DNA of 36,297 bases from Cyanobacteriota bacterium (GTDB taxonomy: Bacteria; Cyanobacteriota; Cyanobacteriia; PCC-6307; Cyanobiaceae). Positions 9,001-33,074 of the stretch are shown piece after piece; within the stretch, counting starts at the first letter, position 1; the number at the start of each line of letters is the position of its first letter. Location: positions 1 through 36,297 of the forward strand of contig JAPLIB010000131.1 of assembly GCA_026389335.1 (NCBI GenBank), in the 5' to 3' direction. The position numbers and the translations under genes were made by a program. Below the pieces are notes generated by a model that was not told the origin of the DNA, did no database searches, and worked only from the letters and a program-made list of their open reading frames with translations.

Positions 9001-12000
9001 TTGAGGTTGAGCAGTAGCGGGACGTTGGCCACCCCGCTCTGCTGGGCCACCAGCTGGTTGTCCACATAGAGCGAGGCCACCCCGCTGTTGCTGGGGCTTT
9101 GGCTGACCACCCCGCCGTTGTCGGTGCTGACGTACGTCGGCAGGTAGGTGGCCACGATGTGATGCCAGCTGTCATCACGCAGATCTGCCGGCACAGCTGT
9201 GCCGATCGCCTGCGAGACCAGGGAGGTTCCCTGGCCGAGGTCGTACACCAGCTGGCCGGATCCATTCACCGACACGGCGATGCCATTCACCAGCGAGAAG
9301 CCCAGTTCATAGCCGGCGTAGTTCTCGGCTTTGGTGGGGGTTGGCGTGCCTTCGCTGCTGCCGTCGGGACTGAGATCGAAATGAACCTTGGCCTCTCCGG
9401 TGCTGCGCTGGTAGTCCCAGAGGGTCTCGAACATCCCGATGAGGGAGCTGTTGGTGGCGCTGCTGTCCTGCAGATCGCTCAGCAGCACCAGGCCCTGGTT
9501 GAGCACCGCTGTGCTGGGGTCGATGGCGATGGCCTTGAGCGCTGAGTCCGGCTGGGCGCCGATCGCGGCGACGCTGGTGCCGAACTGCAGCTCGGTGGAG
9601 GGGGCCCTGGCGATGGTGGCGGCGTTGAGGCCATCGACACCCACCAGGTCGGCCGCGGTCAGCTTGTAGTTGGCCAGGAATTGATTGACGCCTTCAAGGG
9701 CAGCGCCGCTGGCCAGATTGTTGAGCAGCAGGGCATTGCTGTAGACGTTGCTGCCGCCGTTGCCAACCATGGCCTCGGTGTTCGCCCCGCTGGCCTGCAC
9801 GGCCCACTGCCAGCCATAGATCGCTTTCGGATCGTCAATACCCGGGCTGGTGATCAGGCCGCGGGCGGCTGCCTGCTCATAGGTGATCTGATCCACCAGG
9901 AAGCTGGAGTTGAGCAGCCAGCCATCGGGAAGGATGGCGGCGCCGACGGCGGTGCTCGAGGGCTGCCCAAGGGACACCAGGCCGGCCCCTTTGGGATTGC
10001 TGCCCTGGGGCAACTGGGCCCAGAATTCGATGCTGTAGGGGAGTGTGGTGCTGACTGGGGTGACGCTCAGGGAGGCCACGGGAAGTGCATTGCTGTAAGC
10101 GGTATTGAGCGTGAAGGTTCCCGTGCCCGCAGCGCCGTCATAGCTGTTGATCGAGACGATGCTGGTGCCCGGTGTGATCCCAGGACCACTGATGACGTCA
10201 CCCACGGCCATGCTTCCAATACTGAAGAAGCTGCTGGGGTCGAAGAGGCTGAGGCCCGTCACCGTGAGGATGTCGTTGGTGATCGAACCGCTGAAACGGC
10301 TGACGCCGGGGTCGGAGCTGGTGCCGTTGGTTGGGCTGCTGTCGGGTGGGATGTCGGCGGCGATGGCGCGGATCGAGCGCAGCATTGTGCCCAGCCCGGT
10401 GCTGATCAAACCGGTGCCGTCGCTGTTCTGAACGGCCGTGGCATTGGAGTCGGGGATGGCGCCGGCGATGGCGTAGTTCAGTCCTCGGCTGGAGGCGCTG
10501 GTGGCGGTCGCGATCGAATCGACGCTGCCGAGGTTGATGTCGTTCAGGCCGCTTTGCAGACGGTTGAACTGCAGGTAGAGGATCGGTGCGTCGTTGAGAA
10601 CGCTCTCGCTGTAGCTGGGCAGTGCTGCCTGGCTCCAGCTGAGCAGCGGACTTTGGCTGAGGCTGCCATCAGCCAGCGGCATTGGCTGCGAGGCGATGCT
10701 GAGGTCGTTGATCGCCAGGCCCACGTCGACGCTGGGATCCCAGGGAATTGTCTGAATCGACGAGCGACCCTGGGCATCGCTGAACAGCGAATTCCAGTCC
10801 CAGGCACCGGATGAGCTGATCGGCTGGGCATTGGGGTTGATCCAGCCCGCCTTGATCACGGTGGGGATCGTGTTGGTCTGTTGGTTGCCATCGTTCGCGA
10901 TCGCTCCTTGCAGGGCGGCGATCGAGGTTTCAGACCACACCACCAGGGTGGCGATGCCGCCAGGCGCGGTGGCATTGGCGACATTGACCGCTTTCAGATC
11001 ATGGATCACCGCTGGATTGGCGGGCGTGTAGAGATCAGCCAGCGCCGGCACCGCCCAGGTTCCGTCTTGAAGAATGCGGAAATTGATGCGTTGGTTGCCA
11101 TACAGGGCCTGCAGGTAGTCCTGCACATTGCTGCTGCCATCGCCTGGGGTGGTGATCGGAATCACCGGCCCGCCGGCTTCCACCCAGGCCACGAAGGTGG
11201 CACTGCCATTGGCACCGTCGCCGGCGAGGGTGATGGCGGTGGGCGAACTGGCGGCGCTGAACACGATGGTGTTGGCATCGCTGTAGAGCGCGGCTGGAGT
11301 CAGCTGGTCGGGGCTCACACTTCCCTGGGGCGCTTCGCTGCCAGCGCTGGTTGTCGTGCTGCCGTTGAGATACACGACGCTTGACACCGCCGCGCCGCCG
11401 CTGTCGCTGGTGCTTACGTAAGCCACCCGGTTCTGCACCGCTGCCCCACCCATCGCCGCAGTCAGGGTGAGCCCATCACTCATCCCAGCGGCGAGGTACA
11501 CGCCGGCCCCCAGCTGGCCCTGCTGGGCACTGAACTGCTCATCGGCTACCAGATTGTTGAAACCAAGCGCCTGGGAGTCGACCGTGTACACCGGGTTTTC
11601 CGATCCCGCCGGCAAGCTGGCCAGCACCGCTTGCGGCAGGGTCAGGCTGAGCGAGTAGCTGCTGGCGCCGTTCACCGGCACGAACAGCAGCGGTTGATCA
11701 AGCAGCACCTGCTGGATCACGCCCCCACTGAGCAGCACGGTGGCAGTGACGGTGGGATCGGGATTCAGCAGGCTGACTGCCGCCCCACCGGCCTGCAACT
11801 GAACGGCAACGCCCCGGTAGGCATAGGGGCTGTTGTCGTTGCTCGGCGCTGCGGTGGTAACGGTGGGGGTCGCCGGGTTGTAGAGCGGATAGCGCACTGC
11901 GGCCGCTTGAGCCGCTGGGCTCACCGGCACCTCCACCACCCGTTCGATCGCCTGGATCTGCAGTGGCGAGTCGCTCAGGCTGGAGTTCACCGTGACCAGA

Positions 12001-14231
12001 GGCAGGCCGGCGTAGGGATTGGCACTGCTGCTGGCTGAGCTGCTGGCGGTGCTGGTTGGCACGATGCCTGTCGAGTAGACATCCAGCACCAGCGCGTAGT
12101 CGTTGTTCTGAGGTCCGCTGCCACCGAACAACGGCAGGTCGAGATAGGAGCCCGCGGCGCTGATCTGAAAACTGCTCGGATCGATGCTGCCGCCGACCAC
12201 GTTGAAACTGGCCAGGGCGCCGGAGGCCTGGCTGCCATCCACGGTGACACCAAGGATCGGAACTTGGGTGTAAACGCCATCGTTGAGACCGCTGCCGGCG
12301 TTGTAGAGCGTCAGCGCATTGCCCGTGCCGGTAGCGCCGGCATTGATCGCGCCGATGGCGGTGGGCGCCAGCGAGAACAACTGCAGTGGCGTCGCTGCTC
12401 CGCCCAGCAGCACCGGATTGCCTGCACTCGATGAGCTGACGGAGGACAGCAGTGAGGTGCTGCCTGCCTCGGGCGCATAGACGAACGGATACGCCGCGCC
12501 ATCGGCGGCCGCTGTGTAGCTGCCGGAGCTGCTGAAGCCAGCGGCCGCCGACGTGCCGGGATCGCTGAGCTTGTGGCTGTACTGCAGCAAGGGGATCAGG
12601 CCGCCCAGGGGCAGGCGTGCATCCACCTGGGCACCCACCTGGGTCGAGAACGGGCCGGCGACGCCGTTGGTCTGCAGGCTGGAGATCTCGGTGGCGGCCC
12701 TGGCCTGCAGGCCGAAGCTGCCGTTCCAGATCGCGTCAGCCGTGGAGCTCACCGACTGGTTGGCGGCCGAGCCTTGGGCGAAGGCCACCGCCTCGGGCAG
12801 GGTATAGCCGGCCTGGGTCAGGGCGATCCAGCTGGCGGGGCCGAGGGCGGCCAGGGCGGTGCCGGCGAAGGCGTTCTGCTGGGCCAGGGACACGGAGCCG
12901 GCCTGGGGCGCAACGGGCAGCCCGCTGCCGGCGAGGGGGTTGAGCCAGTCAGGTAACACTCCACCGCCGGTGCTGGTCAGGCTCTGCTGCCAGCTCCAGC
13001 CAGCGGCGTACACCGCATCCAGCTGCACGCTGGTGCCACTGCCGAGGTATCCGAAGGCGCTGGGATTGGAGTCCAGGCCTGCGGATTGGGATGTCGTGAC
13101 GCTCAGCAGCGGCCTGCTCAGCTGGCCGGGATAGGAGCTCGTCAGTCCGTAGCCATACAGCGTGCGCAGCTGTCCGCCGAAGGTTGACTGTGGGCTTGCA
13201 CCAGAGGCGGCCAATTTGGCGCTACTGAAGGCTCCGACGCCCGCTCCCGCCGGCGCCGATAGGCCGAAGACGCCGCGATAGGCAGGACTGCCGGCCCCGG
13301 CCAGCCACACCGGTGAGCTCCAGCTGGAAGCGATGTTGGCGCTCTGGCCTGAGGCCGTGCCGCCGCTGCCGAAGGGTTCAGGGCTGGCTCCGGGCCAGGC
13401 ATTGAGCAGATCGGCGCCGGTGCGCGCCATCCCCTGTAGGTAGGTCGGCTGGCCGGGCAGAGGCGCCGGGGCGGCCAGACCGGCTCCCAGCCCCGAGGCC
13501 GGCCAGCCCGGCAGGGCCACGCTGGTATTGGAATTGGCCGCCGCGGTGCTGCTGCCACTGAGGCTCCAGCGCGTCAGCGAGGACCCCGCGGCGATTCCGG
13601 CGGCTGGCGACCCCAGCAGCTCCTGCCGCGTCTGCAAGCTGCTGGGCGCTGGAACGGTTGGCTTGGCGGTCGCCAGCACAGCGGGCGACAGCGCCCCCAG
13701 GCTGGCGCCGCTGCTGACATCGATCAGTTGCGGTTGGGCCGGGTCCTGGATCGCGAAGGGGATGGCGTATAGATCGCTGTCGGCCGCAGGCTTGTCAGCT
13801 GACTGACTGCCGGCTGGCTGGTTCTGCAGTACCAGCGAGAAGCCCGTGCTGCTGGGCACCAGGCTGAAGCTCTGGTTGTCGGCCTGATCGGTGCTGAGCC
13901 GTATCGGCGCCGACCAGACCAGCTGGCCCTGGCTGTTCCACTGCGCCAGGCTCCCGTAGATCGGTGCACTGCTCCCCAGCCCGACGCGATAGGCCAGCAC
14001 GAAGCCGGGCTTGCTGCCGCTGCGGCCGTCGCTGTCGGTGGGCCAGAGGTTGGGCACCACCAGGGCCTGCAGCTCACTGGCACCGCTCACCTCGGGCAGC
14101 AGTTCGGCCCGATCCCAGCGCTGGGCCTGGGCGTTCCACTGGCACCGCCAGATGGCCCCCTCGTCGATCACGAAGGCGTGGGCGGTGCCGTTGCCATCGT
14201 TGACGAGCTGCAGCCTGCTGGTGGTGGACAT
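1..14231 (-). CDS. Giant repeat surface protein (LamG, FG-GAP, sialidase-like repeats), C-terminus outside window
   Basis: The frame is open from ATG at 14231 to the window edge (4743 codons, no stop). No Sec signal, membrane segment or Gly-Gly leader is visible at the N-terminus (MSTTSRLQLVNDGNG). Domains by position: a Ser/Ala/Gly-rich region (14231-10350); a LamG-like concanavalin fold (about 10046-8930, with DSWHHIVATYLP and SLYVDNQLV); six FG-GAP-type calcium motifs such as DVNNDGVKD near 7170, GDVNEDGYGD near 5655, GDFNGDGIGD near 5200 and GDMNGDGYRD near 5030; then sialidase/BNR-like units (YWTSS.D.G.SW) from about 4735 to the edge. Such proteins are usually secreted by type I systems and act in adhesion or motility; that role is inferred. 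A palindromic operator lies upstream. The gene is GC-rich, unlike the export operon. A SwmB-like role is possible but unproven. Confidence 0.9.
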   Translation of the reverse strand, partial: MSTTSRLQLVNDGNGTAHAFVIDEGAIWRCQWNAQAQRWDRAELLPEVSGASELQALVVPNLWPTDSDGRSGSKPGFVLAYRVGLGSSAPIYGSLAQWNSQGQLVWSAPIRLSTDQADNQSFSLVPSSTGFSLVLQNQPAGSQSADKPAADSDLYAIPFAIQDPAQPQLIDVSSGASLGALSPAVLATAKPTVPAPSSLQTRQELLGSPAAGIAAGSSLTRWSLSGSSTAAANSNTSVALPGWPASGLGAGLAAPAPLPGQPTYLQGMARTGADLLNAWPGASPEPFGSGGTASGQSANIASSWSSPVWLAGAGSPAYRGVFGLSAPAGAGVGAFSSAKLAASGASPQSTFGGQLRTLYGYGLTSSYPGQLSRPLLSVTTSQSAGLDSNPSAFGYLGSGTSVQLDAVYAAGWSWQQSLTSTGGGVLPDWLNPLAGSGLPVAPQAGSVSLAQQNAFAGTALAALGPASWIALTQAGYTLPEAVAFAQGSAANQSVSSTADAIWNGSFGLQARAATEISSLQTNGVAGPFSTQVGAQVDARLPLGGLIPLLQYSHKLSDPGTSAAAGFSSSGSYTAAADGAAYPFVYAPEAGSTSLLSSVSSSSAGNPVLLGGAATPLQLFSLAPTAIGAINAGATGTGNALTLYNAGSGLNDGVYTQVPILGVTVDGSQASGALASFNVVGGSIDPSSFQISAAGSYLDLPLFGGSGPQNNDYALVLDVYSTGIVPTSTASSSASSSANPYAGLPLVTVNSSLSDSPLQIQAIERVVEVPVSPAAQAAAVRYPLYNPATPTVTTAAPSNDNSPYAYRGVAVQLQAGGAAVSLLNPDPTVTATVLLSGGVIQQVLLDQPLLFVPVNGASSYSLSLTLPQAVLASLPAGSENPVYTVDSQALGFNNLVADEQFSAQQGQLGAGVYLAAGMSDGLTLTAAMGGAAVQNRVAYVSTSDSGGAAVSSVVYLNGSTTTSAGSEAPQGSVSPDQLTPAALYSDANTIVFSAASSPTAITLAGDGANGSATFVAWVEAGGPVIPITTPGDGSSNVQDYLQALYGNQRINFRILQDGTWAVPALADLYTPANPAVIHDLKAVNVANATAPGGIATLVVWSETSIAALQGAIANDGNQQTNTIPTVIKAGWINPNAQPISSSGAWDWNSLFSDAQGRSSIQTIPWDPSVDVGLAINDLSIASQPMPLADGSLSQSPLLSWSQAALPSYSESVLNDAPILYLQFNRLQSGLNDINLGSVDSIATATSASSRGLNYAIAGAIPDSNATAVQNSDGTGLISTGLGTMLRSIRAIAADIPPDSSPTNGTSSDPGVSRFSGSITNDILTVTGLSLFDPSSFFSIGSMAVGDVISGPGITPGTSIVSINSYDGAAGTGTFTLNTAYSNALPVASLSVTPVSTTLPYSIEFWAQLPQGSNPKGAGLVSLGQPSSTAVGAAILPDGWLLNSSFLVDQITYEQAAARGLITSPGIDDPKAIYGWQWAVQASGANTEAMVGNGGSNVYSNALLLNNLASGAALEGVNQFLANYKLTAADLVGVDGLNAATIARAPSTELQFGTSVAAIGAQPDSALKAIAIDPSTAVLNQGLVLLSDLQDSSATNSSLIGMFETLWDYQRSTGEAKVHFDLSPDGSSEGTPTPTKAENYAGYELGFSLVNGIAVSVNGSGQLVYDLGQGTSLVSQAIGTAVPADLRDDSWHHIVATYLPTYVSTDNGGVVSQSPSNSGVASLYVDNQLVAQQSGVANVPLLLNLNDQAQLLTNNVGGAIDQLAFYNKALTSTSFSPDTSGQWPVPTSTEALALLAAMGYSIAGQSPDPGTIPGAISQHYAARNVDPKASPLTSYTSAFNADTGTWSEASPLTPLAQPLPTSPSFRRNGTPAQDGLVINVPISSWTSDDWLQTTASGSSNNQFFDPSNQLLSGVTVTLVNISRSSETPLTLQLSADQVLLGDQSLQSLQPLATASSFLYRVPTNTPALTLLIPADQLPAGSDSLGTQSLSDRYAASVTFDFATYQGSLQGTIAGTKLTVSSLNGTLAVGDLISGPGILPGTSITAVLTAFKSSSGKGIYTVSQSQTLSSTTTLTILGDVTTLSPSQGSLQGAITGTVLTVTSLNGNLEVGDLLSGTGVAPGTFITGIRTPFSAATNGGGEGSGIYSVSQNQVLGSTALTILSGVLDEGASLPPADSQPGAWGSTAGSSNSAAVIGTALVVGDTPLTLQGLDNGLVLRSASNAEAANNPALTEPLRSFGQSQVVGQFNDSAGNSYGWLAIAQPFASEGLKPAPGQVFVQYTGQSANGVPSSTAAQAPSTWLKALASSRFEADRPNLPLRDDVSNPSSSGGLLIRAEASAGWGQGFGDTMLVADVNNDGVKDLVISAPQANGGGKVLIINGLWIQKQLTTSAGTKILDLSDPDSLAGYVTVLTPSAASGSGDDISAAAFGSALAFDNVSKTLWIGAPNYQRQLNPGNSTPQSSLQPIGAVYSYTYAASNPGGWDQNLATPLACAAVGSGGVTISTDAAGAAISTYWGSRFGSAIAVNDINVDGSSGIAVSAPGVQASLLYGGSEAVQQELGTGNTPTSPANAGALEKIQLPGVISFALQGSISEKIMQLSGEASSINQVQVGDLVTGVGVAAGTTITGIDSSTYIDGTIKRYYGVSQPNTVGETILTIVPNPIPSVSTLQGSSNPQLLPVASGASQAAATSPTMQNLKALQVDTIVPATQRNNQAIQSAAVGAVYLFNSSGDLQLQGQQGGNPISDQAVNQAVYGGASFYGPNPWNTLGDTGFGTSLSFADLTNRNSNSILSIGAPQTGGSGALYLVDTSQAFTAAPGSQPSAISNINLGSNQYLAYLASGVTLYGAASGDNFANGLVSLGDVNEDGYGDLLVQGFNAANGAGVGYVLFGNDQLLSTSTPSGIAAASGSVAPGSIGSLQRADGTTINGAILSLLGSGQPGYTGQGTCGAGDVNGDAIPDIPLGSGPNGSASVSWGGSDLAANANLQLSRMASDSGMVIDDQASTLPGSLQSIGDFNGDGIGDVISILPGDVLTSVRLYFGQNSQATLPSTPYRYYNFNVANGTQVLAAGDMNGDGYRDLALFLDQNLSASDQTNQNAGAGSTTGIFYGRPNDQLPASPGFGLLAPVGPGFDTAALKLPGLTIASGLTSAAASVIAVGTTLYAAVQGVGAGDTTIWFSQSSDGGNSWADWTDLSNSYAGFATTASPSLAFFDDRLYLGFVDSSGALSVASWDPDSASPADWSSPNTIASPDSIYSSGATYDSRYSPQLVNGGDSLDVVWVDSETGQVCSASSTTPTATVPWSPIGVGSSVAAPALARLGNTLYMAVQSGAGGNAIYWTSSTDDGVSWVPWTALPSGITSVLPPSLAVVGNTLYLSYLGDGNNEINIVSLDASSNTWNTPYQIPGQTAAYASLSCELVGGEEQLAVYYVSYDSTNRILKAYTSTPSSSSNWTSDQQIYYDYDASDTSSGVQTASGPIAVSQYGGLTYLAYQGGTTSSASDEIYLATSSSSNLNIGSGWTAQALLDPDTRTGLGLSSDLDGLWLTYGNSSQSNELQVSLLTPDSSGTVTVQTPTSLNLPVGLSNNVSTLDAVGSGQGLILAGINDSANSNTVKTSLVDLGAVASWTAPNKLQQGSSPTTAISATAAPSVTWLGGIPVLAVNNNGTIVVYAGNGANNTLNQISSFTASDGVTSSSEPVLTSTDTGLALSYNNSSGSVTLYRTDLIRVDGSPVAGVKLGSFGVIDTINGDLGWDLTTLSQISTAVGSVPLNVDGTLMLVNVRNDNSQANEIWINAVPNRADADSLTWLNSTVQLPGANSGDWTVSQQIGTTINLGTTVANWQDLSADKAVAPPAFAWDTANDVIYAASLDSSNTLWWSSSSDGGKTWATSQELPTTMTTELAPALGIIGSTLYLAYVGTNKQINITSMSLSEPNNTWASVYQLNQYAQSISMVYEWDKKKGKSVLGIYYLGTDDKIYRTYNTSTSPSQNNDWDASMVIPNQTASGQIVATRLGSASDDTGTTYFAYQGGTPSSPSDTIYLSGSTDPGSGSSWWVTDNIPQSTSPSHSGVGLTTNSQGLILSFADVSSASLPVLNLQQATVTSTTTTWAPYTTIQSPSLTPTPAASVFATPLSSTVLVAGINTGNSWTGVNGGSSPATPSLARQSITVALSDTTNYALGTGANAGQVLLTAAGQARIQNGTALPAFTLTPISGKTYTAQLQIAPAVIKTAIATLPSLTITPATLTSAATTGTAVAVYSTSASTISSNGGTISTPVSVSLSQTTAYEKGTTTTASGKTEYQVQLTAAGAALVSSGATLPSFTLTPSAPTTQDGKSVTVDGTPVTFTPAVTTDSQQPTLTINALNILTQASTTTPPPVGTVVATFDITDPGEQTVYMAVLGNNNDQEGGGGDYLYWTSSANNGNSWNSWKQLPSTMNSAVAPSVTVLGGTLYLGYLGTGNNEINITSLDSSTGNWSTPYQIPISGQSGTFATASYLSLCTESDQGTQQLAIYYVDSGTTGNILKAYTSDAASNSGWTVGDAIQYTSSGNLQNQTASGPITVSQYNDQTYLAYQGGTPNSPATQIYLASSANPFVGSSWAIQQLIDPGTKTALGLSGNDTGLTLSYGKSSLPNQLQLQQYEATTTPWSNLGITPSSATALVFDGSNTVYSAVISNGAIQWAYGTKNSSGSDISWSDWQVVGSTSLQPAAGTALASNGTNFYMAFQAGEALYWTSSSDSGASWNGWQVVVGATPGAQ
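340..1030 (-). repeat. Sialidase-like repeat unit C in giant protein
   Basis: The third unit has landmarks LYWTSSANNGNSW, GTLYLGYLGTGNNEINI, LAIYYVDSGTTGNILKAYTS and TYLAYQGGTPNSPATQIYLA. A further unit begins at about 85 (LYWTSSSDSGASWNGW) and is cut by the window edge, so the array continues. Confidence 0.75.
1246..1790 (-). repeat. Tandem pair of short repeats in giant protein
   Basis: Two related stretches lie between sialidase-like units B and C. One (about 1620-1790) has LSDTTNYALGTG then VLLTAAGQARIQNG and LPAFTLTP. The other (about 1285-1440) has LSQTTAYEKGTT then VQLTAAGAALVSSG and LPSFTLTP. The shared core is LTAAG followed by LP.FTLTP. The pair probably forms small beta-rich spacer domains. 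Confidence 0.65.
1960..2640 (-). repeat. Sialidase-like repeat unit B in giant protein
   Basis: The second unit has landmarks LWWSSSSDGGKTW, STLYLAYVGTNKQINI, LGIYYLGTDDKIYRTYNTS and TYFAYQGGTPSSPSD. It is the most diverged of the three full copies. Confidence 0.7.
3568..4245 (-). repeat. Sialidase-like repeat unit A in giant protein
   Basis: One of three full units of about 230 residues. The unit runs from YWTSSTDDGVSW through NTLYLSYLGDGNNEINI, AVYYVSYDSTNRILKAYTS and TYLAYQGGT to LWLTYGNSSQSNELQVSLL. Units B and C repeat the same landmarks in the same order. The Ser-x-Asp-x-Gly-x-x-Trp element is an Asp-box (BNR) signature, typical of beta-propeller blades. Confidence 0.75.
7850..8229 (-). 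repeat. Adjacent pair of VGD-x-(I/L)SG-PGT repeats in giant protein
   Basis: Two copies of a module of about 43 residues: GSLQGTIAG then SSLNGTLAVGDLISGPGILP (about 8229-8090), and GSLQGAITG then TSLNGNLEVGDLLSGTGVAP (about 7986-7850). More diverged copies occur at about 10310-10140 (VGDVISGPGITPGTSI) and 6510-6340 (VGDLVTGVGVAAGTTI). The copies are dispersed among LamG and FG-GAP regions, not in one array. Confidence 0.7.
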
Positions 14232-14303: not shown

Positions 14304-14317
14304 CCTGCAGATGTAGG
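14304..14317 (-). promoter_or_regulatory. One-mismatch copy of the CCTACA-NN-TGTAGG operator before the giant gene
   Basis: The minus strand reads CCTACATCTGCAGG; a single change breaks the palindrome found upstream of four substrate genes. It lies 72 bp before the ATG, against 49-53 bp for the others. The -35 slot (14298-14303, ATGGTG) and -10 slot (14275-14280, TTAGCG) expected from the other promoters are poor here, so the promoter position is unclear. Confidence 0.6.
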
Positions 14318-14759: not shown

Positions 14760-17700
14760 TCATGCTAATTCAACGACAACTTCTGCATCAGCTCCGATAA
14801 CCTCCATCTCTTCGATTTCGGCTTCGGCTGCTGTATCGAGATCGACTTCGGCTTGGGTTGTGTCGCTGACGACGTCAGAGATGGCCTCGGATTCAGCGTC
14901 ACTGGCAGCCTCGAGGAAGCCCTGGCGAAGATCCTCATCAACGATACGTTTGACTTCCCTGTCGGCCAGGTCATCAGCCTCGGTTTCGAGGTCCTTGTCG
15001 GCGACGTCAGTTTCAAGCTTGCGCCCATCATGTAACGCTTCGTCCACGTCGTCGAGCTTCTTGTCCTCCATCAACTTGGTTCTGGCATCATCATCTAAAT
15101 TCTCCATTTCACGCGTCTTGCCACGTTCAAGTTCTTTGTTTGAGACATTGATCTCGCCATCTTTTTCTTCATTGACAAGTTCTTTCCCCTTCGGCTCTGC
15201 TTTGACATCAAATTTCTCCATCCCTTTATCGGTAAACTTATTGTCCTCTAGCTTGTCGTTGATAGCGCTGTCCTTGCTGAGCGCCTTGTTGCCAAGATCT
15301 TTTTCGGTGGTCTCTCCATCCTTCACCATCTCCTCGTCCTTGGCGACGTCTTTCTTCGCATCAGCTTCTTTCTCTTTAGCCTTCTTGGCCTCCTCTGCTG
15401 CTTTTTCTTTTGTTTCCTTGGATTTTTTAATTTTTTCGCTTATTTTGTGAGACCAATGTTTGATCTGCATGATATAAGCAAACAGCGATGGATTGTGCGG
15501 TGTGATCGCAGAATTGGAGTTGGAGGATCCATGGGCGGCAAAGCTGATTGACAAAAGATGCGGATCTTGGGCGATATTAGTAAGAGTCGCACGCACATTA
15601 GACAGGGTTTGGCGCTGGTTGAGGACTGACATGGAAGGCTTGGGAATAGTGTCCCAAGTAGAATGATGGCCGACGTTGTCTGTTTTCACATTAAGGATCA
15701 GACTGCCAACTGAAACTTGTTGCCCTGATTTAATCTCAGCTTTTTCGCTATTCCATTCTTTTGCTTCGTTGGCATCTTTGCTTTTAGCAGTGTTTTTGAT
15801 CCTCTTCAGTGCATGGTTAGTATTTTGATTGTAGCTAATCCAGCTGTCGAATTGTGAGCGGTACTCTGCTTGCTGCGCAAGGGTGAGGCTTTTCCATTTT
15901 CCTGTATGTCCAACTAAGGTGGCAAAGGATTGGCCGAGAAGCTTATTTTTTTGCAGGGTGCTCAGCGTCGACAGGTCGGCTTCGGTCACCTCGGTATGGC
16001 CAATCTTCTCAATACGCTCATATTTATGGATCTGCTTCTTCAGGGTTTGATGGTAGGTCTTGACTTTAAGATAGTCCTTGGTGATCAAGCTTTTTTGATT
16101 GTCCTTGAGCCAATGTGTTAACACCTTGTTGACCAAGGGTTGGGACACGATCGTGTCAACTTCTTTGAACTTACTTTCCAGGTTTGAGCGAACATTCCGG
16201 GAAACAGTCACCAGACCCGGATCTTTTTTGATCTCCTGTTTGATCTCCTGGTAGTAATGATTAACTTCGAAGCCGCCGATGATGTCAGTAAATGCATGTT
16301 TGCCAAGCTTATTGCTCTTAATTAAACTTTTGACTTCGTTTTGACCGCTCTTGCTGTTGATGGAGAACAGCAGGGCATTCATCAGCTTGACACCCATCCA
16401 TTCACCCACATTGTTCCAATCTGTAGTAACGGCCGTCGAGTAGTCCTTCTTGAAAGCTCCTAGACGTGAAAGCACAAGCTTGGCATTATTGTTCAAATTC
16501 TGCATGCCAAGTTTGATCGTGCCTTGCTTGGAAGCCTTGGTCGCATCCTTGAGTGCCAAAAAGCTCACGGCCACTTCCTTCTTGCCGAGCACTCCCAGTC
16601 CCTTGTAAGCTTTGTGCAGTTTTATGTATTGATTGAGATCGAGATCGTACTGGTTAAGCGTCCATTTTTTGATTTTCTTACTCTTGTGGGAGAGCTTGGA
16701 AACCTTGTCCAGAATGTCATGGATACCTGAATGGAGATAGGTGTGAACTTGCGGCTTCAGCTGGGACGTAAAAGCATTGATCCGATAATTTACACTGGCC
16801 TTATAGTTGGTATTTGTCTTATATTTTCTGTAATCTAAGATCAGCTTCTTCCAGTGGCTCTTGATGTCTTGGTGCGCTATCTCTATTTTGCTGCTCAAGT
16901 TATCTAATTGAGCGGGCTTGATGCTGTCGTACTGTTTTGTAAGGAATTTCGAATAGTTGCTGATAAAATGCTGAATAGGTGAAGTAAGAAATCCGGTGCG
17001 ATGTAGATCGCGTCTCAGATGCATGCGCAACACCTCAATCTGGATGGCCGTTCTGGTCGCAGCTGTCTTACCCACCAAGGCCGCCAGGCCGGCAAACTTC
17101 CAGGCCTCACCAATCATGCGAACTTTCTTGTAAAGCTTCTTGTGATAGGCACCAAGAAACACAGATTTCCAGTTAGTGCTATCGCCACCGATAGCGCGAC
17201 AAACTTGATAAATTGTTCGAGCATACACTGACATCGCCCATACGATGTCGTGATAGACAAACTTGACAAGATGCCAGATGCCTTTAAAATCCAATTTCAG
17301 TCCAGCCCAGATTTTTCGATACTCCCAGGGATGGGTCAGAGCAAATAGGAGTTGCTTGCCAAAATGAACAGTATGGTCACACAGATGCTTGGGAAGGTGC
17401 CAGAGTCCTTTGATCGCATGCCAGCCAATGAATAAAACAGAATTGGCCGTTTTACGCTCGGCACCGGCCATCCAAGATCCAGCTTTTGGACTGATGAAGC
17501 TCAGCGTATGATTAAACCACTTGAACTCATGCTTGTAGATAGGTCCGAGAGTATAATGCCAAATGGTTTTCGTCCATGAAACAGTCTTGCGAGCGATGCG
17601 GTGGAACGGATGAAATCCAGTAAATTTATTGTTTTTCATATAATTATCTTCCTTGGTCATTTTATTGTAGATAAACTGCCCGATCTTTAGCCTGATGGCT

Positions 17701-19739
17701 AGCCGCAGCTTCCAGGCAAAATGATGGCGATTTAGATGTACAACTTCCTTGGCAACACGGAGTTGGCGATGAAAGATGAAGGGGGCATATGCTAACTTGT
17801 CAGCAGAACTAGCGTATTTTAGTTCCCTCTTGTCCTCTTCCAGTAGGGCCGCAAAATAAACAGCTGTTGCGCCCAATCGCGCCATTTTCTTGGTGGCTCC
17901 TGCTCCGAGTAGATCAATATAGGCTCCTTGGCCGGCCAAGTAGGCAGTTCTCTCTGTGGTGTGGAAAGACTTTTCTGAATTGTAGGCAGGATTGAAAGCT
18001 TTATACTGGTTCTTCTGGCTGAGGTTCTGCCAATAGTCGTTTCTATAGGTAGAGGGTACAAGGTGAAAGCCCTTGCCATTCGAGTTTTTCTGAATCGTGT
18101 AAGGAGATGTTGTTTTGGACTTGGCGACAATATATTTGTCTTCATTGTCTATTTTAATGCCTCTGCGAAGTTCGAGATAGTCTAGGGTCAGCTTGGGATG
18201 CTCTTTCCAGCCGCCGCCCATATGCTCTTTGATCGTAGTTAATCGCTTGACTGAGTTATTGATCCCTGTCTGGATGGCTTTAAGGTCATGATAGGCTTGA
18301 CCAATAACAATCTTTTGGGCCCTAAGGCTGCCATATTGGCTTGTGATCTTGGCCTCAATTCTTCGATCCCTCTCGATGTCAGCCATGGTGACATCAGTCA
18401 TCGTGAAATCAGTATAGAGTTTCTGTAGTTCTGCGTGATTCTTGACCGCTGTCTTTGCCTCTGCGATGGCAGCAGAATGATTGAGCCGCTCATGGCAATT
18501 TTGCTGTGGTTCAAGTTTCTTAATCTTCTTTTCGTCCCTTTTTCGTTGTAGCGAAACCAGGGTGACGCCATGTCGCTTAGCGCTCCTGCGCTTTGCATCC
18601 AACGTGTTCGTCAAGTCTTGCTGTTCCGACCTCAGTTGCTTGACCGTCAGCGGCACCTTGGCCTTAGGAAAGACATGTTTGAATCGGGTCATAGCTTGAC
18701 TGGATTGTCCCGTTTTGGCGTTGAGGGCGCAGCGTGCATTCCAGTTATTGACGTGTTGATCCCAGGTCGCCGTCCACTCCGCAGCCTGCTGCTTCCGATG
18801 CGCATGCCATAGCGCCCTGGCCGTGAAGTCATTCACCACTGTCAAGGCCGGATCCAGTTCGGCTGCGCCCGTGGTTTTGTTGAGCAATATCGTACCGCGA
18901 TCGCCTTGCCAGTCAAACGTGATGCTCACAGAGCGTGAACTACCGCTGCCGTCAAAGCTATAGGTTGGTTTGACGATCAGCCCGGCTTTGACTTCTGCTT
19001 GGTAGTTCTGTTTGTAATACTGCTTGTCGATCTGTAGAACTTGCTTGCCTGCACCCTGATGCTCGCATCCACCGCGGCCAGGCGTTCCTGCAACGATGAG
19101 TTTTTCTATTTGGACCGCATTTTCCTGCTTCTGAGTAATAAATTTACTTTTTTCGTTTTTGGATCTGGTTTTCCCTTTGCTCTCGATGCTCTTGGCCTGC
19201 GTCTCTTTGGTGTCCTTTAAATTATTAATTTTTGACACTTTTTCGTCGACCTGGTACAGCAGAGAACTATGTATTTTGGTTTCGATGCTGCCACCAATCT
19301 CCACATAACGTCCGAGTTTTGTTGCGGCAGCAGCGTTGTATGCCCCAGCAGTCTCAAACTTTCGCAGTAACAAGCCACGTTTGAGCGTCCGCATCGACAT
19401 CATCCCCCCAGCGATCGCATCCACTGCGGCCAGGTGTTCCTGCACCAAGGCTCCCAATGTCGGCACAAGCGTCTCTGGAATCGCCTCACCTTGATGCAGG
19501 AAACGATTAACAGCGTCACCCAGAACAGGATCCATTGCCGAGGAGGCGGCAAAGGTGTGGAAGGATTGCTTCAGCTCCGTGTAGCTATACCCTTCATCGT
19601 CCAGCCACTGTTCCCGCTCTTCCGTAGCCAGGAGAATCCACTCACCATACCCCTGCTCACTGGCGAAGAGATCGGCCAGCCAGTAAAGGAGCGCTTCCGG
19701 CTTGTCTGTCAGATTCGAATCAGGCTTGGAAGTCGTCAT
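14760..19739 (-). CDS. P5: 1659-residue giant protein with short WLDDEGY/Gly-Gly leader
   Basis: I do not recognise a known family for the body. The N-terminus carries WLDDEGY at 45-51 and HLAAVDAIAGG ending at 111-112, which places Val at -7 and Ile at -4 from the cleavage site, as in double-glycine leaders. This makes it a likely substrate of the C39 transporter at 26776-28905. After the leader comes a long Lys/Arg/His/Trp-rich helical region (to about residue 1430) with aromatic repeats such as HAIKGLWHLPKHLCDH and FKGIWHLVKFVYHD. An extreme Glu/Asp/Lys-rich region follows, becoming strongly acidic to the end (EVVVELA). There are few Cys and no clear catalytic motif. No palindromic operator or clear SD precedes it. 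It is more AT-rich than the giant gene downstream. It could be a structural surface protein or a large antagonistic protein; neither is shown. Confidence 0.9.
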   Translation of the reverse strand: MTTSKPDSNLTDKPEALLYWLADLFASEQGYGEWILLATEEREQWLDDEGYSYTELKQSFHTFAASSAMDPVLGDAVNRFLHQGEAIPETLVPTLGALVQEHLAAVDAIAGGMMSMRTLKRGLLLRKFETAGAYNAAAATKLGRYVEIGGSIETKIHSSLLYQVDEKVSKINNLKDTKETQAKSIESKGKTRSKNEKSKFITQKQENAVQIEKLIVAGTPGRGGCEHQGAGKQVLQIDKQYYKQNYQAEVKAGLIVKPTYSFDGSGSSRSVSITFDWQGDRGTILLNKTTGAAELDPALTVVNDFTARALWHAHRKQQAAEWTATWDQHVNNWNARCALNAKTGQSSQAMTRFKHVFPKAKVPLTVKQLRSEQQDLTNTLDAKRRSAKRHGVTLVSLQRKRDEKKIKKLEPQQNCHERLNHSAAIAEAKTAVKNHAELQKLYTDFTMTDVTMADIERDRRIEAKITSQYGSLRAQKIVIGQAYHDLKAIQTGINNSVKRLTTIKEHMGGGWKEHPKLTLDYLELRRGIKIDNEDKYIVAKSKTTSPYTIQKNSNGKGFHLVPSTYRNDYWQNLSQKNQYKAFNPAYNSEKSFHTTERTAYLAGQGAYIDLLGAGATKKMARLGATAVYFAALLEEDKRELKYASSADKLAYAPFIFHRQLRVAKEVVHLNRHHFAWKLRLAIRLKIGQFIYNKMTKEDNYMKNNKFTGFHPFHRIARKTVSWTKTIWHYTLGPIYKHEFKWFNHTLSFISPKAGSWMAGAERKTANSVLFIGWHAIKGLWHLPKHLCDHTVHFGKQLLFALTHPWEYRKIWAGLKLDFKGIWHLVKFVYHDIVWAMSVYARTIYQVCRAIGGDSTNWKSVFLGAYHKKLYKKVRMIGEAWKFAGLAALVGKTAATRTAIQIEVLRMHLRRDLHRTGFLTSPIQHFISNYSKFLTKQYDSIKPAQLDNLSSKIEIAHQDIKSHWKKLILDYRKYKTNTNYKASVNYRINAFTSQLKPQVHTYLHSGIHDILDKVSKLSHKSKKIKKWTLNQYDLDLNQYIKLHKAYKGLGVLGKKEVAVSFLALKDATKASKQGTIKLGMQNLNNNAKLVLSRLGAFKKDYSTAVTTDWNNVGEWMGVKLMNALLFSINSKSGQNEVKSLIKSNKLGKHAFTDIIGGFEVNHYYQEIKQEIKKDPGLVTVSRNVRSNLESKFKEVDTIVSQPLVNKVLTHWLKDNQKSLITKDYLKVKTYHQTLKKQIHKYERIEKIGHTEVTEADLSTLSTLQKNKLLGQSFATLVGHTGKWKSLTLAQQAEYRSQFDSWISYNQNTNHALKRIKNTAKSKDANEAKEWNSEKAEIKSGQQVSVGSLILNVKTDNVGHHSTWDTIPKPSMSVLNQRQTLSNVRATLTNIAQDPHLLSISFAAHGSSNSNSAITPHNPSLFAYIMQIKHWSHKISEKIKKSKETKEKAAEEAKKAKEKEADAKKDVAKDEEMVKDGETTEKDLGNKALSKDSAINDKLEDNKFTDKGMEKFDVKAEPKGKELVNEEKDGEINVSNKELERGKTREMENLDDDARTKLMEDKKLDDVDEALHDGRKLETDVADKDLETEADDLADREVKRIVDEDLRQGFLEAASDAESEAISDVVSDTTQAEVDLDTAAEAEIEEMEVIGADAEVVVELA

Positions 19740-20101
19740 AGCAGAAGATGCGGAAGATTCAGGAGAGTGATGAGCTGATCAGGGGGTGTCAGCGGGCCGC
19801 TGCTCTGAGAGGAGCTGTGATCAATTAGAGTGAATTAATCGCTGGGTTAGAGATCCAGGAGATTAGGGAAAACTGTGAGTATCGTAAACATCAACACTGC
19901 AAAGGACTCAAGTCGATGTTTCAATAAGGGCACCACAAACAATTGCTCATCCCGCCCTTGCAAGCCGCAGGTCAGTCGGTGACTGCAATGCTTGTTGTGT
20001 TGCGTAACCCATGGATTCGGGATTTTTTAAGGTGCCCTTCAGTGACTTTGGTCCAAATCGATCCATCCTCATGAATGGATCATAGGACGCGGGGCAGGGG
20101 C
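19740..20101. other. 362-bp intergenic region with a long inverted repeat
   Basis: The region separates P1 (upstream on the minus strand) from P5. It contains no gene I can support. A 9-bp perfect inverted repeat (AAGGGCACC at 19926-19934, GGTGCCCTT at 20031-20039) has imperfect inner complementarity (CACAAACAATTGC against GCAATGCTTGTTGTG), giving a possible folded element of about 114 bp. A weaker 7-bp hairpin at 20060-20081 lies just after the P1 stop and could help end P1 transcription. No CCTACA-NN-TGTAGG site is present upstream of P5. Confidence 0.4.
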
Positions 20102-21403
20102 TCAGATTTTGATGACGTCTTCGGCTGTTTCTTCGGCCTCCCGAACCGCTGCTTTGGCCTCCCGTTCCGCGAGCGCTGTTGCTTCTCTGGCTCGATAAAG
20201 GACATCGTCCTTAGCAATGACTTTTGATTCCTTGAATGTGGCTTTGCCTTCATTGATAAACTTAAGCATGGGATTATCCATTTCTTCTTGTGCTTCCTTC
20301 TTGGCTAGCTCAACCTCGTCTCTGACGAGTTTTGTGTAGCAACTTGTGAGTTCTTTCGTGAATTTGGCGCGTATTTCGGTTCCCTTGCTTGACCATATCT
20401 CTTTTTGCATATTTTCAAAAAAGTCATCATACTCTCCATTCTCAACTGCGCTTGCGGCATCTCTGATAGCCCTCTTGGTGTCTAGCGATAGATCGCTACT
20501 GGCTTCTGCTGTAATAGGGTCGTTTGCTGCAATCCTGAAGACTCTCTCCTTGTATTCAGGGCTTGAACGGATCATATCTTTGATGTCTTTGTCGATGGTT
20601 GTTTCTGCAAATGCTACAGCATGATCGCCAACGAGCTTTTCCACTCTAAGTTCGATGTGTTGTTCGGTATATTCGGTGATACTTGTTTTATTTAGAACGA
20701 CATCTCTCCTCATGGATTCTGTGTATTTCAAAAGTTCTGCTGGATCTTTCATGGCCCTTTCCAGCAGGGGGCCTTCTTCACGTCGTGCTTGGCGTTCAAG
20801 ATCTCCTGCCTCGCGCTCAAGCCTTTCCGTTCCTCTTACTTCATCTCGGTCGATGTCGCGCTCTAAGGCTCCCTGGTTTCGGTTCCTCCATTTATTAGCA
20901 AGCCATCGCACACCATTTACGGCCTTGTATCCTACATAGATTGTAGCCGCTGTTCCAGTAACCACACCTAAACTAATAGCCACATCTTTGCCTGCTGAAC
21001 TACCACCAGCGGTGGCCTGCAGCTGCTGCTCTTCCGTCACGGCCAGAGTTTCCAGGGTTTCGATCTCCTTGGCCAGGGCAGCATGATTGGTCTGGACATG
21101 TTCCATCAGCTTAGGCAGCCCCTCCGGCTCGTCAGCGCTGGATTGGAGGAAGCCCCGCAATTCGGCCCCACCCTGCACCCCCAGCTTGGCCTCACAAACC
21201 TGGTTGAGAATCAAACCAAAACCATCCCGGTCGTAACCTTCCTCATCCAGCCACTGCCACCAGCCTTGCAGGCTGCGGTTGACGGCCGTCTCATCCTGGT
21301 CCAGCTGCTGCAGGATGGCGACCAGGGCACTGCGGAACTCAGCTGCTGCCCCTGCAGCCATGGCGGGATGGATCAATTGGAGGGTCTCAAGCAGTGCTGG
21401 CAT
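20102..21403 (-). CDS. P1: double-glycine-leader exported coiled-coil protein, 433 aa
   Basis: I chose the ATG at 21403 (MPALLETLQLIHP). The longer frame begins with GTG at 21454, inside the promoter. From 21403, WLDEEGY falls at 51-57 and ATAGG ends at 134, exactly as in P2, P3 and P4. The leader has Leu at -7 and Thr at -4. The body starts with a short linker and a hydrophobic segment (ISLGVVTGTAATIYVGY), then a basic stop (RWLANKWRNRN). A long Glu/Lys/Arg-rich helical region follows, ending EETAEDVIKI. The expected path is cleavage after Gly134 by the C39 ABC transporter, then export through the HlyD-like and TolC-like proteins. The mature protein would be 299 aa. Body function is unknown. 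Its body is homologous to P2 but diverged, while the leader DNA is almost identical. Confidence 0.88.
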   Translation of the reverse strand: MPALLETLQLIHPAMAAGAAAEFRSALVAILQQLDQDETAVNRSLQGWWQWLDEEGYDRDGFGLILNQVCEAKLGVQGGAELRGFLQSSADEPEGLPKLMEHVQTNHAALAKEIETLETLAVTEEQQLQATAGGSSAGKDVAISLGVVTGTAATIYVGYKAVNGVRWLANKWRNRNQGALERDIDRDEVRGTERLEREAGDLERQARREEGPLLERAMKDPAELLKYTESMRRDVVLNKTSITEYTEQHIELRVEKLVGDHAVAFAETTIDKDIKDMIRSSPEYKERVFRIAANDPITAEASSDLSLDTKRAIRDAASAVENGEYDDFFENMQKEIWSSKGTEIRAKFTKELTSCYTKLVRDEVELAKKEAQEEMDNPMLKFINEGKATFKESKVIAKDDVLYRAREATALAEREAKAAVREAEETAEDVIKI

Positions 21404-21427
21404 CGGTGGAAGCCTGTCAGTAGCATC

Positions 21428-21470
21428 ATTGTGCTGCATCGCCTCAATCACCACAACCTACAAATGTAGG
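21428..21470 (-). promoter_or_regulatory. P1 promoter with palindromic operator
   Basis: The palindrome CCTACATTTGTAGG (minus strand) is at 21457-21470. It is followed without a gap by -35 TTGTGG (21451-21456), a 17-bp spacer and -10 CACAAT (21428-21433). The ATG at 21403 is 24 nt after the -10. The operator centre would fall near -42, the class II position used by LuxR-type activators. Confidence 0.75.
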
Positions 21471-21547
21471 GCTGTCAGCACAGGCCTGGCTGTGGAGCCG
21501 AATCGAGCCATGGACGCCGTTTTCGACCCAGCGGCAGGCGATCGACG

Positions 21548-21567
21548 GGTAGGCGCAAAGGCCTACC
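21548..21567. terminator. Hairpin between P2 and P1
   Basis: A 7-bp stem (GGTAGGC at 21548-21554 with GCCTACC at 21561-21567) has a 6-nt loop. It lies between the P2 stop and the P1 operator. No clear U-run follows, so it is a weak terminator candidate. The 195-bp gap otherwise holds only the P1 promoter. Confidence 0.35.
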
Positions 21568-21649
21568 ACGAAAGTTCTCAGCTTTGCCCTCCGCAAGCGG
21601 CTGATCTCCCTGGGTCGACCCTGGTGGTTTGCTTCAGGAAGGCTGCTGA

Positions 21650-22936
21650 TTAGATATCACTAAAAATATCCAAATCTTCCATTATTTCTGCACTATCACG
21701 CTCGGCCGTAGCCTTGGCGTCTCGAGCAGCCCCTCTTACCTCCAGTTCAACCCTTATTTCTGATTTTTTAGCCAATCCCTTGCCATCGCTTACCATGTTA
21801 ATCATTTCGTTGTCGGCATCATTCAAGGCTTCTCGCTTGGCGATAGCCACTTCCTCCTTCACTAGCGGTTTGTAGGACTGTGTGAGTTCAGATACGATCT
21901 CTTTCCTTAGCTTGCTCATGTCAGTTGTTTCAAGCTCGGCGAGTTTGCCCTTGAACCAAGACCCATTTTCTACCTTAGCGATTGCCGTTTGATAGATATC
22001 GCTGTTTTTAATCTCGGCGCCGAGGTCCATAAAATCTAGCTTTTCTGCTTCTGTATCAATGAGCTGGTCTGTTTCTTGCAGAACTTGTTTTTGGTATTCA
22101 GGGTTGGCGCGAAGCTTGTCTGCAATAGCTGCTTTAATTTCGACATCGATTTCTTTTGCAAATATCATCGTATGTTTGCCTACTAGTTGTGCAACATGTG
22201 TTTCGATATCATTATCTTCATACCTTTCAAGGCCTTTCCCCAGGTTTACGACAGCGCTTGGATCCATCATGACCTTTTTGAGAGCCTCGAAGTCATGGGC
22301 TACGCTCTCCAGGGTGGCATCTTCTCTTTCTACCCTCACCCCCATTCTGGCCTCTTTACGAAGAGCTGCAGCAGCATTTTCTTTTTCAACTGTAAGCATT
22401 TGCTCTGCTCTTTCCCGAGCTACATTACGTCTGTTCGCATTAGTTCTTTTATGTATAAACGTCATTAACAATCCACCCCCCGCGACAACTAATAGTCCGC
22501 CTATAGCTCCTCCAATCGCTGCGCGACTGCTTGTGCCACCCGCCGTGGCGACAAGCTGCTGCTCTTCCTCCACAGCGAGGGCCTCCAGGCTTTCGATCGT
22601 CTGGGCCAGGTCCGGAACTTCAGACTGCACATGGTCAATCAGCTTCGGCAGCCCCTCCGGCTCAGCCGCGTTGGCTTGGAGGAAGGCCCGCAGCTCGGCG
22701 CCACCCTGCTCCCCCAGCTTGGCCTCACAAACCTGGTTGAGAATCAAGCCAAAACCATCCCGGTCGTAGCCTTCCTCATCCAGCCACGTCCACCAGCCTT
22801 GCAGGCTGCGGTTGGCGGTCGTTTCGTCCTGTTCCAGCTGCTGCAGGATGGCGATCAAGGCACTGCGGAACGCAGCCGCTGCCCCTGAAGCGATGGCGGG
22901 ATCAATCAGCTGGAGGGTCTCAAACAGGGATGCCAT
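21650..22936 (-). CDS. P2: double-glycine-leader exported coiled-coil protein, 428 aa
   Basis: The start is the ATG at 22936 (MASLFETLQLIDP), not the GTG at 22987, which overlaps the predicted -35 box. WLDEEGY is at 51-57 and ATAGG ends at 134. After the cleavage site is a glycine-zipper-like hydrophobic segment (AIGGAIGGLLVVAGGGLLM) with GxxxG spacing, followed by HKRTNANRR. The rest is a charged, probably coiled-coil body ending in MEDLDIFSDI. The mature product would be 294 aa. It is a tandem paralogue of P1: the promoter and leader match closely, and the bodies share short landmarks (LVG.H near the middle, then an EVA.AKREA-type stretch). The glycine zipper recalls pore-forming or oligomerising microcin-type proteins, but the long body argues for a structural protein too. 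Confidence 0.88.
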   Translation of the reverse strand: MASLFETLQLIDPAIASGAAAAFRSALIAILQQLEQDETTANRSLQGWWTWLDEEGYDRDGFGLILNQVCEAKLGEQGGAELRAFLQANAAEPEGLPKLIDHVQSEVPDLAQTIESLEALAVEEEQQLVATAGGTSSRAAIGGAIGGLLVVAGGGLLMTFIHKRTNANRRNVARERAEQMLTVEKENAAAALRKEARMGVRVEREDATLESVAHDFEALKKVMMDPSAVVNLGKGLERYEDNDIETHVAQLVGKHTMIFAKEIDVEIKAAIADKLRANPEYQKQVLQETDQLIDTEAEKLDFMDLGAEIKNSDIYQTAIAKVENGSWFKGKLAELETTDMSKLRKEIVSELTQSYKPLVKEEVAIAKREALNDADNEMINMVSDGKGLAKKSEIRVELEVRGAARDAKATAERDSAEIMEDLDIFSDI

Positions 22937-22960
22937 CAGTGGGGAAATCTCAATAGCATC

Positions 22961-23003
22961 ATTATGCTGCATCAGCTGAACCACCACAACCTACAGATGT
23001 AGG
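22961..23003 (-). promoter_or_regulatory. P2 promoter with palindromic operator
   Basis: The palindrome CCTACATCTGTAGG (minus strand) is at 22990-23003. It is followed by -35 TTGTGG (22984-22989), a 17-bp spacer and -10 CATAAT (22961-22966, five of six consensus bases). The ATG is 24 nt further on. Layout is identical to P1. Confidence 0.78.
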
Positions 23004-23046
23004 GCCGTCACCGAATCCACCCCTGCCCAGCACGAGTCCTGCTCCA

Positions 23047-23062
23047 GCAGGTTGAAACCTGC
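23047..23062 (-). terminator. Short hairpin after the export operon
   Basis: GCAGGTT (23047-23053) pairs with AACCTGC (23056-23062), effectively a 5-bp stem with a 6-nt loop. It lies between the outer-membrane-factor stop and the P2 operator. It is a weak candidate for the end of the export operon transcript; no U-run is present. Confidence 0.3.
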
Positions 23063-23087
23063 CAGTCTGCGGCCTTCCCTGCCCCTC

Positions 23088-30134: not shown

Positions 30135-30212
30135 GCTTTTGTTTTTAGATTAGGAATTAGGAACCTTTATTGCTATTGGTTCGCTCCCGTGTTCTGGTGG
30201 CCATTTCGACAC

Positions 30213-30239
30213 CGAGGCTCGCTGATTCTGCGAGCCTCG
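30213..30239 (-). terminator. Perfect 10-bp hairpin between P3 and the export operon
   Basis: CGAGGCTCGC (30213-30222) pairs with GCGAGCCTCG (30230-30239) around a 7-nt loop. No U-run follows on either strand. It may act as a partial terminator or RNA stabiliser, letting P3 be expressed more than the transporter. Confidence 0.45.
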
Positions 30240-30272
30240 AGCCGCTCTCAAGCTGATCCAGCTTGCTGGCTT

Positions 30273-32807: not shown

Positions 32808-32817
32808 ATTTGAATCG

Positions 32818-33056: not shown

Positions 33057-33074
33057 TGTTTTGGTCTTTTTGGT

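Follow-up and report, generated by a model that had tools for sequence, protein, structure and literature searches.

The 1659-residue protein encoded on the minus strand at 14760–19739, called BIG here, is on balance best explained as a leader-bearing cargo of approximately 176 kDa of the neighbouring, peptidase-active C39 T1SS, and as a member of a cargo family that is marked at both ends. The window, which is the whole 36,297-nucleotide stretch of DNA analysed, encodes this exporter together with four other predicted cargoes, P1–P4 (Table 1). In the proposed mechanism, residues 1 to approximately 112 of BIG would form a shortened leader of the P1–P4 family and dock on the ABC exporter (26776–29001) through its C39 domain. 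The peptidase would cut after IAGG112 or at an equivalent place, and the unfolded product of approximately 176 kDa would exit through the ABC, HlyD and TolC proteins. The acidic, hydrophobic-ended tail most likely serves as a second, C-terminal element, either in export or in keeping the basic body soluble beforehand. Outside the cell, the strongly basic and probably helical body would act at a surface, and a role as an extracellular or cell-surface interaction protein is favoured over that of an enzyme; this is the weakest step of the proposal.

Table 1. Features of the window, in order of position (., no strand assigned).
Feature	Positions	Strand	Basis
Giant protein with FG-GAP repeats, 4743 aa, cut by contig end; island flank	3–14231	-	domain match
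One-mismatch palindrome upstream of giant FG-GAP gene	14304–14317	.	pattern search
BIG, 1659-aa protein	14760–19739	-	intact ORF, ATG start, no internal stop
BIG acidic tail, residues 1431–1659, end VVVELA	14763–15449	-	charge; C-terminal trait of most cargoes tested
Conserved block 2 of BIG, residues 1320–1499 (IKSGQ..VG ... acidic-tail start)	15243–15782	-	common to G056 homologue, E 3e-06, single comparison
BIG basic body, His/Trp-containing, residues 113–1430	15450–19403	-	charge profile; very low-confidence model of residues 600–1440
Conserved block 1 of BIG, residues 653–797 (FHPxHR ... PKHL)	17349–17783	-	common to G056 homologue, E 1e-07, single comparison
Probable BIG leader, residues 1–112, end AIAGG; QWLDDEGY at residues 44–51	19404–19739	-	leader-motif comparison with P1–P4
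Predicted cargo P4, start shifted to codon 18	20102–21403	-	palindrome abuts listed GTG
Palindrome upstream of P4	21457–21470	.	pattern search
Predicted cargo P3, start shifted to codon 18	21650–22936	-	palindrome abuts listed GTG
Palindrome upstream of P3	22990–23003	.	pattern search
TolC-type outer-membrane channel	23088–24743	-	domain match
Second ABC permease/ATPase, no peptidase; best match NHLM_micro_ABC2, below cut-off	24740–26776	-	
C39-peptidase ABC exporter; Q58, C64, H135, D151	26776–29001	-	domain match; residues kept in G056 orthologue
HlyD-type adaptor; best match NHLM_micro_HlyD, below cut-off	28905–30134	-	
Predicted cargo P2, 134-aa leader, end NMAGG	30424–32082	-	leader alignment
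Palindrome upstream of P2	32135–32148	.	pattern search
Predicted cargo P1, 134-aa leader, end ATAGG	33075–34475	-	leader alignment
Palindrome CCTACANNTGTAGG upstream of P1	34525–34538	.	pattern search
LuxR-type regulator	34556–35449	-	domain match

The BIG gene and its island

The open reading frame had been noticed in a first-pass annotation of the window, which gave no strand. It is a real gene: it starts with ATG, has no internal stop and lies on the minus strand. A copy with 95% identity is present in a sister MAG (G380, locus L003); it spans residues 529–1659 only, and its contig ends there. Across 1127 codons of this part, dN/dS is 0.285, with a value of 0.60 for the acidic tail. For residues 529–1659, these values show that the gene is genuine and under constraint, which is looser in the tail. 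The scarcity of cysteine, which accounts for 5 of the 1659 residues, weakly favours the proposed cargo role.

BIG is the last gene of an island that holds the full exporter. The G+C content across 14760–34475 is 49.2%, against 64.9% and 66.4% in the flanks. The island measures 20 kb (14232–34555) and lies between the LuxR gene and the giant FG-GAP gene. Of the 33 genomes that bear the palindrome CCTACANNTGTAGG, five loci (L052–L056) were inspected. In a protein-level test, the LuxR gene, the palindrome and the start of the giant gene were contiguous only in G175 (L054) and G301 (L056), which belong to the same genus as the window. Here, LuxR identity is 58% and 70% and that of the giant protein, over its first 140–190 residues, is 43% and 50%, respectively. 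In G126 (L053), LuxR and the palindrome are adjacent and the giant protein has no match, while in G286 (L055) the palindrome precedes the giant gene and LuxR has no match. As the LuxR and giant genes are adjacent in G175 and G301, P1–P4, the exporter and BIG look like an insert of approximately 20 kb between genes that are neighbours elsewhere. The palindrome upstream of the giant-gene relatives in L054, L055 and L056 is exact, and the copy at the giant gene of the window has one mismatch.

The exporter and its counterpart in another genus

Residues Q58, C64, H135 and D151 of the C39 ABC protein, which we take to be the catalytic residues, are intact in the window and in G056, a complete genome from another genus that has a cognate locus with exporter. 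The G056 locus encodes an 861-aa leader protein, LuxR, HlyD, the C39 ABC, the second ABC and TolC, followed by proteins of 1323 and 478 aa. Identity between window and G056 is 51% for the C39 ABC, 43% for the second ABC and 36% for LuxR. Past its GG, the 861-aa leader protein (L020:7929–10514) consists mostly of repeated DGLNDRGxEPRRDYMPT / GGVESPxARRYDDVREE units. One leader gene of G056 is interrupted by a stop, leaving a 225-aa remainder (L021:8431–9108 and 9650–10700), and is adjoined by ORF fragments that look transposase-like by eye.

The two ABC genes and HlyD find their best named matches in the NHLP/NHLM exporter (TIGR03794, TIGR03796, TIGR03797). In the portion of the source that was available, this system likewise combines a C39 ABC with a peptidase-less ABC and HlyD near genes for GG-leader proteins (PMC2887384). 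The ABC genes of the window fall far under the equivalog cut-offs (224.9 against 853.3 bits for ABC1 and 135.2 against 709.4 bits for ABC2), and HlyD falls somewhat under (128 against 156.2 bits). In addition, the window locus has a TolC gene, its leaders match no NHLP or Nif11 model in NCBIfam, and there is no modification enzyme among the listed ORFs of the island. The cargoes differ as well: instead of peptides, mature proteins of 32–48 kDa (P1–P4) and 176 kDa (BIG) are predicted.

Uniqueness of the exporter was rejected as an argument, because the genome of the window has seven C39-domain matches, six of them above cut-off. The link between BIG and this exporter therefore rests on neighbourhood, leader likeness and G056. 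A close copy of the second ABC was not found in G380, which holds the last two thirds of BIG, or in G339; both are fragmented drafts with leader proteins, and the missing gene counts against strict coupling.

The leader family

P1–P4 are paralogous cargoes with divergent bodies and a 134-residue leader in common. For P3 and P4 this length applies after a shift of the start to codon 18, from which the leaders align. The listed starts (22936 and 21403) are probably 17 codons early, and were shifted because the palindrome comes to within three bases of that GTG codon. The leader profile matches 4 of 399 genomes of the order, including that of the window. Three further leader proteins of the family lie in the same genome, at L024:118–1899 (contig C9), L026:6215–8011 (C136) and L025:6653–8201 (C50). 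The stretches inspected around them hold no exporter and no palindrome, and a frameshift has apparently split the C50 protein into pieces of 331 and 206 aa. In G097 (L037/L038) and G152 (L039/L040), a more distant exporter with two ABC proteins stands beside one 580-aa protein each. These proteins have a leader-like start of approximately 120 residues that ends in AVAGG, and an end rich in Trp, Asp and Ser; they were excluded from the counts of the leader family.

The N-terminus of BIG is probably a diverged leader of the P1–P4 type, with a likeness that is weak beyond QWLDDEGY and AGG. QWLDDEGY, which contains the WLDxEGY motif of the leader family, is letter-identical in P1 and P2. In VDAIAGG at residues 106–112, position −3 is alanine and position −7 is aliphatic, a pattern shown by all 12 other leaders. 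The distance from motif to GG is 67 residues in BIG, against 83 in 11 of the 12 leaders and 74 in one, which places BIG outside the 83-residue spacing of the family; the segment between QWLDDEGY and AGG is 16 residues shorter than in P1–P4. When residues 1–150 of BIG were shuffled, a bare GG arose within residues 91–140 in 29% of cases, so that GG alone means little. The family-type pattern [ILVM]xxxAGG arose in the same interval in 1% of shuffles.

Further comparisons were made with whole leaders. The pairwise local scores of the BIG leader against P1, P2, P3 and P4 were equalled by 2, 0, 6 and 0 of 500 shuffles, respectively. A 12-leader profile was made, on purpose, without BIG and its G056 homologue. 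It was also made without the 225-aa and 206-aa pieces, in which the leader is out of frame, and without L009, which nearly duplicates the C136 protein, and L010, a partial hit. Residues 1–150 of BIG score 16.0 bits against it, higher than all 1000 of their own shuffles (best 12.5), with an E value of only 0.0012 in a set of 2004 sequences. The four-leader profile A3 did not retrieve BIG from its own genome.

The 1323-aa protein of G056 is a distant homologue of BIG in two collinear blocks (Table 1). Its N-terminus has the motif QFLIDQGY, and the spot of BIG's GG is taken by TGAG, at a motif distance of 66–67. GG itself is therefore not conserved; the G056 protein has none before residue 284, and the residues that precede its GA are off the family pattern, with serine at −7. 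Against the 12-leader profile it scores 7.8 bits (E 0.39), which beats its own 1000 shuffles (best 6.1) and is lower than one shuffle of BIG (12.5 bits). GA does figure as an alternative cut site in the passages available from PMC4997328.

The first-pass annotation had proposed that IAGG at 109–112 might be used and a product of approximately 1547 residues exported. Given the leader likeness and the location beside a C39 exporter, export of this product is the best reading, and cleavage at GG112 is plausible; the absence of GG from the G056 homologue speaks against the use of that site. It is improbable, if still worth weighing, that BIG leaves uncut through the same T1SS. The N-terminus would then only dock, as in HlyB-like systems, the acidic end would be the true signal, and the GG would be a remnant or a coincidence. 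The homologue that keeps a QFLIDQGY-like motif and the tail without a GG fits such a route, as does the ease with which a bare GG arises by shuffling; moreover, large T1SS cargoes mostly bear an uncut C-terminal signal according to the part of PMC8277102 that was available. Against it stand the retained peptidase residues of the exporter and the rarity of a family-type cut site among shuffles, and the GA of the G056 protein, at the same spacing, could itself be cut if the alternative described in the excerpt from PMC4997328 applies. Leader-directed export followed by cleavage remains the preferred account.

The body and the acidic tail

BIG has no match in Pfam, NCBIfam, PHROGs or PADLOC at E 0.1, with noise only at E 10, and a PDB profile search returned no solved relatives. 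Homology to a cytoplasmic family, which the first-pass annotation had named as grounds against secretion, was thus looked for in these five resources and none was found. RTX repeats (GGxGxDxUx) are absent from BIG and from the G056 homologue. Structure prediction, also suggested at that stage, was run on two parts. The AlphaFold model of residues 600–1440, from a two-row alignment, has a mean pLDDT of 32 and is too poor for a fold search, and the leader model has a mean pLDDT of 49, so only the description "mostly helical", for residues 600–1440, is usable.

The distribution of BIG is narrow. A single-sequence search matched 2 of 399 genomes of the order, one of which is the window's own, and a search of assembled-genome contigs gave one locus, the sister-MAG contig (L003). 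Relatives are absent from the viral contigs, plasmids and phages searched. Profile A5, which combines BIG with its MAG copy and the protein of G056, matched 3 of 386 genomes of the phylum. Two of these are A5 members; G533, the remaining one, scored 15.7 bits (E 0.0014) and was judged a chance match. Within the genus of G056, A5 matched one of 31 genomes, G056 itself.

The division of BIG into a basic part and an acidic end, noted at first pass, is borne out by calculation. Residues 113–1430 have a net charge of +101 and a pI of 9.95, against −32 and a pI of 4.44 for residues 1431–1659. The most acidic 100-residue stretch among the 11 proteins of the window lies in this tail (−28, the next being −16). 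The G056 homologue is divided in the same way (body pI 9.83, tail 4.05). Recurring Trp-His pairs had also been noted, and they are enriched in BIG, with five observed against 1.3 expected (0.7% of shuffles). The homologue has none, and so the pairs are no conserved motif and were rejected as a functional signature. The hydrophobic glycine zipper of P1–P4, which the annotation had found missing from BIG, is indeed absent directly after its GG: the best 19-residue hydropathy in the mature part is 0.97, against 1.5–2.1 just past the GG in P1–P4.

An acidic, hydrophobic-ended C-terminus is a trait common to the cargoes, and BIG, which has both features, is its extreme case. With BIG and its homologue counted, 10 of 12 cargoes carry a net charge of −6 or lower over their last 60 residues, compared with 8 of 63 controls; with these two excluded, 8 of 10 cargoes are acidic. 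A hydrophobic residue closes 10 of the 12 cargoes and 24 of the 63 controls. The 12 cargoes were drawn from 17 assembled proteins by omitting the L003 copy of BIG, the upstream piece of the frameshifted gene and three near-duplicates, and two of them are downstream pieces of broken genes (225 aa in G056, 206 aa on C50). The controls are stop-to-stop ORFs of at least 300 aa from the G056, G097 and G152 loci, as opposed to curated genes of the window's genome. In a looser test on 15 of the 17 proteins, without the L003 copy and the upstream piece of the frameshifted pair, an acidic end was found in 12 of 15 cargoes against 12 of 131 controls and a hydrophobic end in 12 of 15 against 48 of 131.

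At first pass, the basic part of BIG had been proposed as a possible binder of polyanions or of the acidic tails of partners. Since most cargoes tested have such a tail, the idea of the acidic part as a ligand within a partnership is not supported, and a partner-binding polyanion was dropped as first choice. Instead, a trait common to most cargoes favours a role in export or solubility over the binding of a particular partner, and this is the most likely function of the tail.

A large secreted antibacterial toxin, with the other cargoes as companions or variants, is a possible though doubtful identity for BIG, and one that overlaps the preferred account in its function outside the cell. The very patchy distribution, the island location, the glycine-zipper segments of P1–P4 and the pairing of a common leader with divergent bodies would all suit a toxin. 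The domain searches described above (E 0.1) gave no toxin or pre-toxin domain in BIG, and no obvious immunity gene is present among the ORFs of at least 80 aa beside it. In polymorphic toxins the variable toxin domain occupies the C-terminal position, which is where BIG has its conserved tail. The look of residues 700–870 had raised a polymorphic toxin as an identity; no library match was obtained and it is kept as a rival only. The passages on polymorphic toxins available from PMC3482391 contain nothing that bears on C39-dependent export of such a protein.

The palindrome and control of the locus

The 4.05-Mb genome of the window has exactly four copies of the palindrome CCTACANNTGTAGG, each upstream of one of P1–P4. 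G056 also has four, all of them in its locus, where they precede the genes for HlyD, the 1323-aa homologue and the 478-aa protein and one ORF of 116 aa. At least one site is present in 33 of 374 genomes of the order, and four sites are found only in the window's genome and G056. A reversed control pattern reaches five copies in some genomes (0 in G000, 1 in G056), and the weight therefore rests on the clustering ahead of these genes rather than on the number of copies. The LuxR protein is likely to be the reader of the palindrome. The 116-aa ORF (L021:2538–2888) may be an accessory or immunity gene.

Upstream of BIG the palindrome is absent, even when up to two mismatches are allowed, in agreement with the first-pass annotation, which had deduced from this and from the missing zipper that BIG may have another job and control. 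Control does differ in the genome of the window. The deduction does not carry over to G056, where the homologue lies beside the cognate exporter and the palindrome stands 53 nt upstream of it. Linkage of BIG-type genes to the exporter is thus seen in two genera, with the operator in common in one.

The weak leader, the GG missing from the homologue and the lack of an operator at BIG raise the question of whether the protein is exported at all. It might act in the cytoplasm as a helper or chaperone-like partner for the cargoes, or its gene might be fading, and the two draft genomes that have leader proteins and no cognate exporter in view would be consistent with this. Such an explanation is unlikely in the light of the purifying selection across 1127 codons, the G056 homologue under the same operator and the cargo-type tail of BIG.

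Relation to known systems and significance

The RTX and large-adhesin T1SS (HlyB, LapB), whose exporters have a C39-like domain, also move very large cargoes by the TolC route, and these cargoes have a C-terminal end with acidic and hydrophobic residues, as does BIG. In contrast, the exporter of the window has intact peptidase residues, and BIG carries a leader-like segment at its N-terminus and lacks RTX repeats. Removable GG-type leaders are normally found on tiny exported peptides. According to one review, peptidase-containing ABC exporters whose C39 domain is active all appear to carry substrates of up to approximately 10 kDa; cargoes of more than 50 kDa, with a C-terminal signal, are carried by exporters whose C39-like domain is inactive (PMC8277102).

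Among cyanobacteria, EbfG1–4 and PteB of Synechococcus elongatus provide a case of GG-motif proteins whose export is aided by a C39 ABC protein, and such export can serve biofilm formation, as set out in the excerpt from PMC4997328. The EbfG proteins are small, and are likened here by description. In Wang et al. 2011, cyanobacterial bacteriocin clusters assigned to groups IV and V also combine HlyD, a C39 ABC and an extra peptidase-less ABC, with precursors of 28–164 aa according to the portion of that paper available (PMC3140520). No description of C39-exported cargoes as large as these was found among the open-licence papers listed, as judged from titles and the starts of abstracts.

The best reading is NHLP- or bacteriocin-type C39 export with cargoes far above the approximately 10 kDa quoted for peptidase-active exporters. 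More tentatively, and with less confidence than is placed in BIG as a cargo, the locus may represent a separate class of T1SS. This class would unite a peptidase-active C39 exporter and a second ABC with very large cargoes, in a picocyanobacterial island. The cargoes would be marked at both ends, by an AGG leader of approximately 110–150 residues and an acidic, hydrophobic-ended tail, and would measure 32–82 kDa in most cases and 176 kDa for BIG. BIG and its G056 homologue would be the founding members of a cargo family that has no known relative.

Since the C39 exporter of this locus is intact and its neighbours are leader-bearing cargoes of 32–48 kDa and 176 kDa, the 10-kDa rule becomes directly testable. 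If export and cutting are true, leader processing and very large cargo would be combined in one T1SS, and the approximately 1550 residues of BIG would be a protein family without a known fold. If they are not, the locus would illustrate the decay of a leader to a domain for docking.
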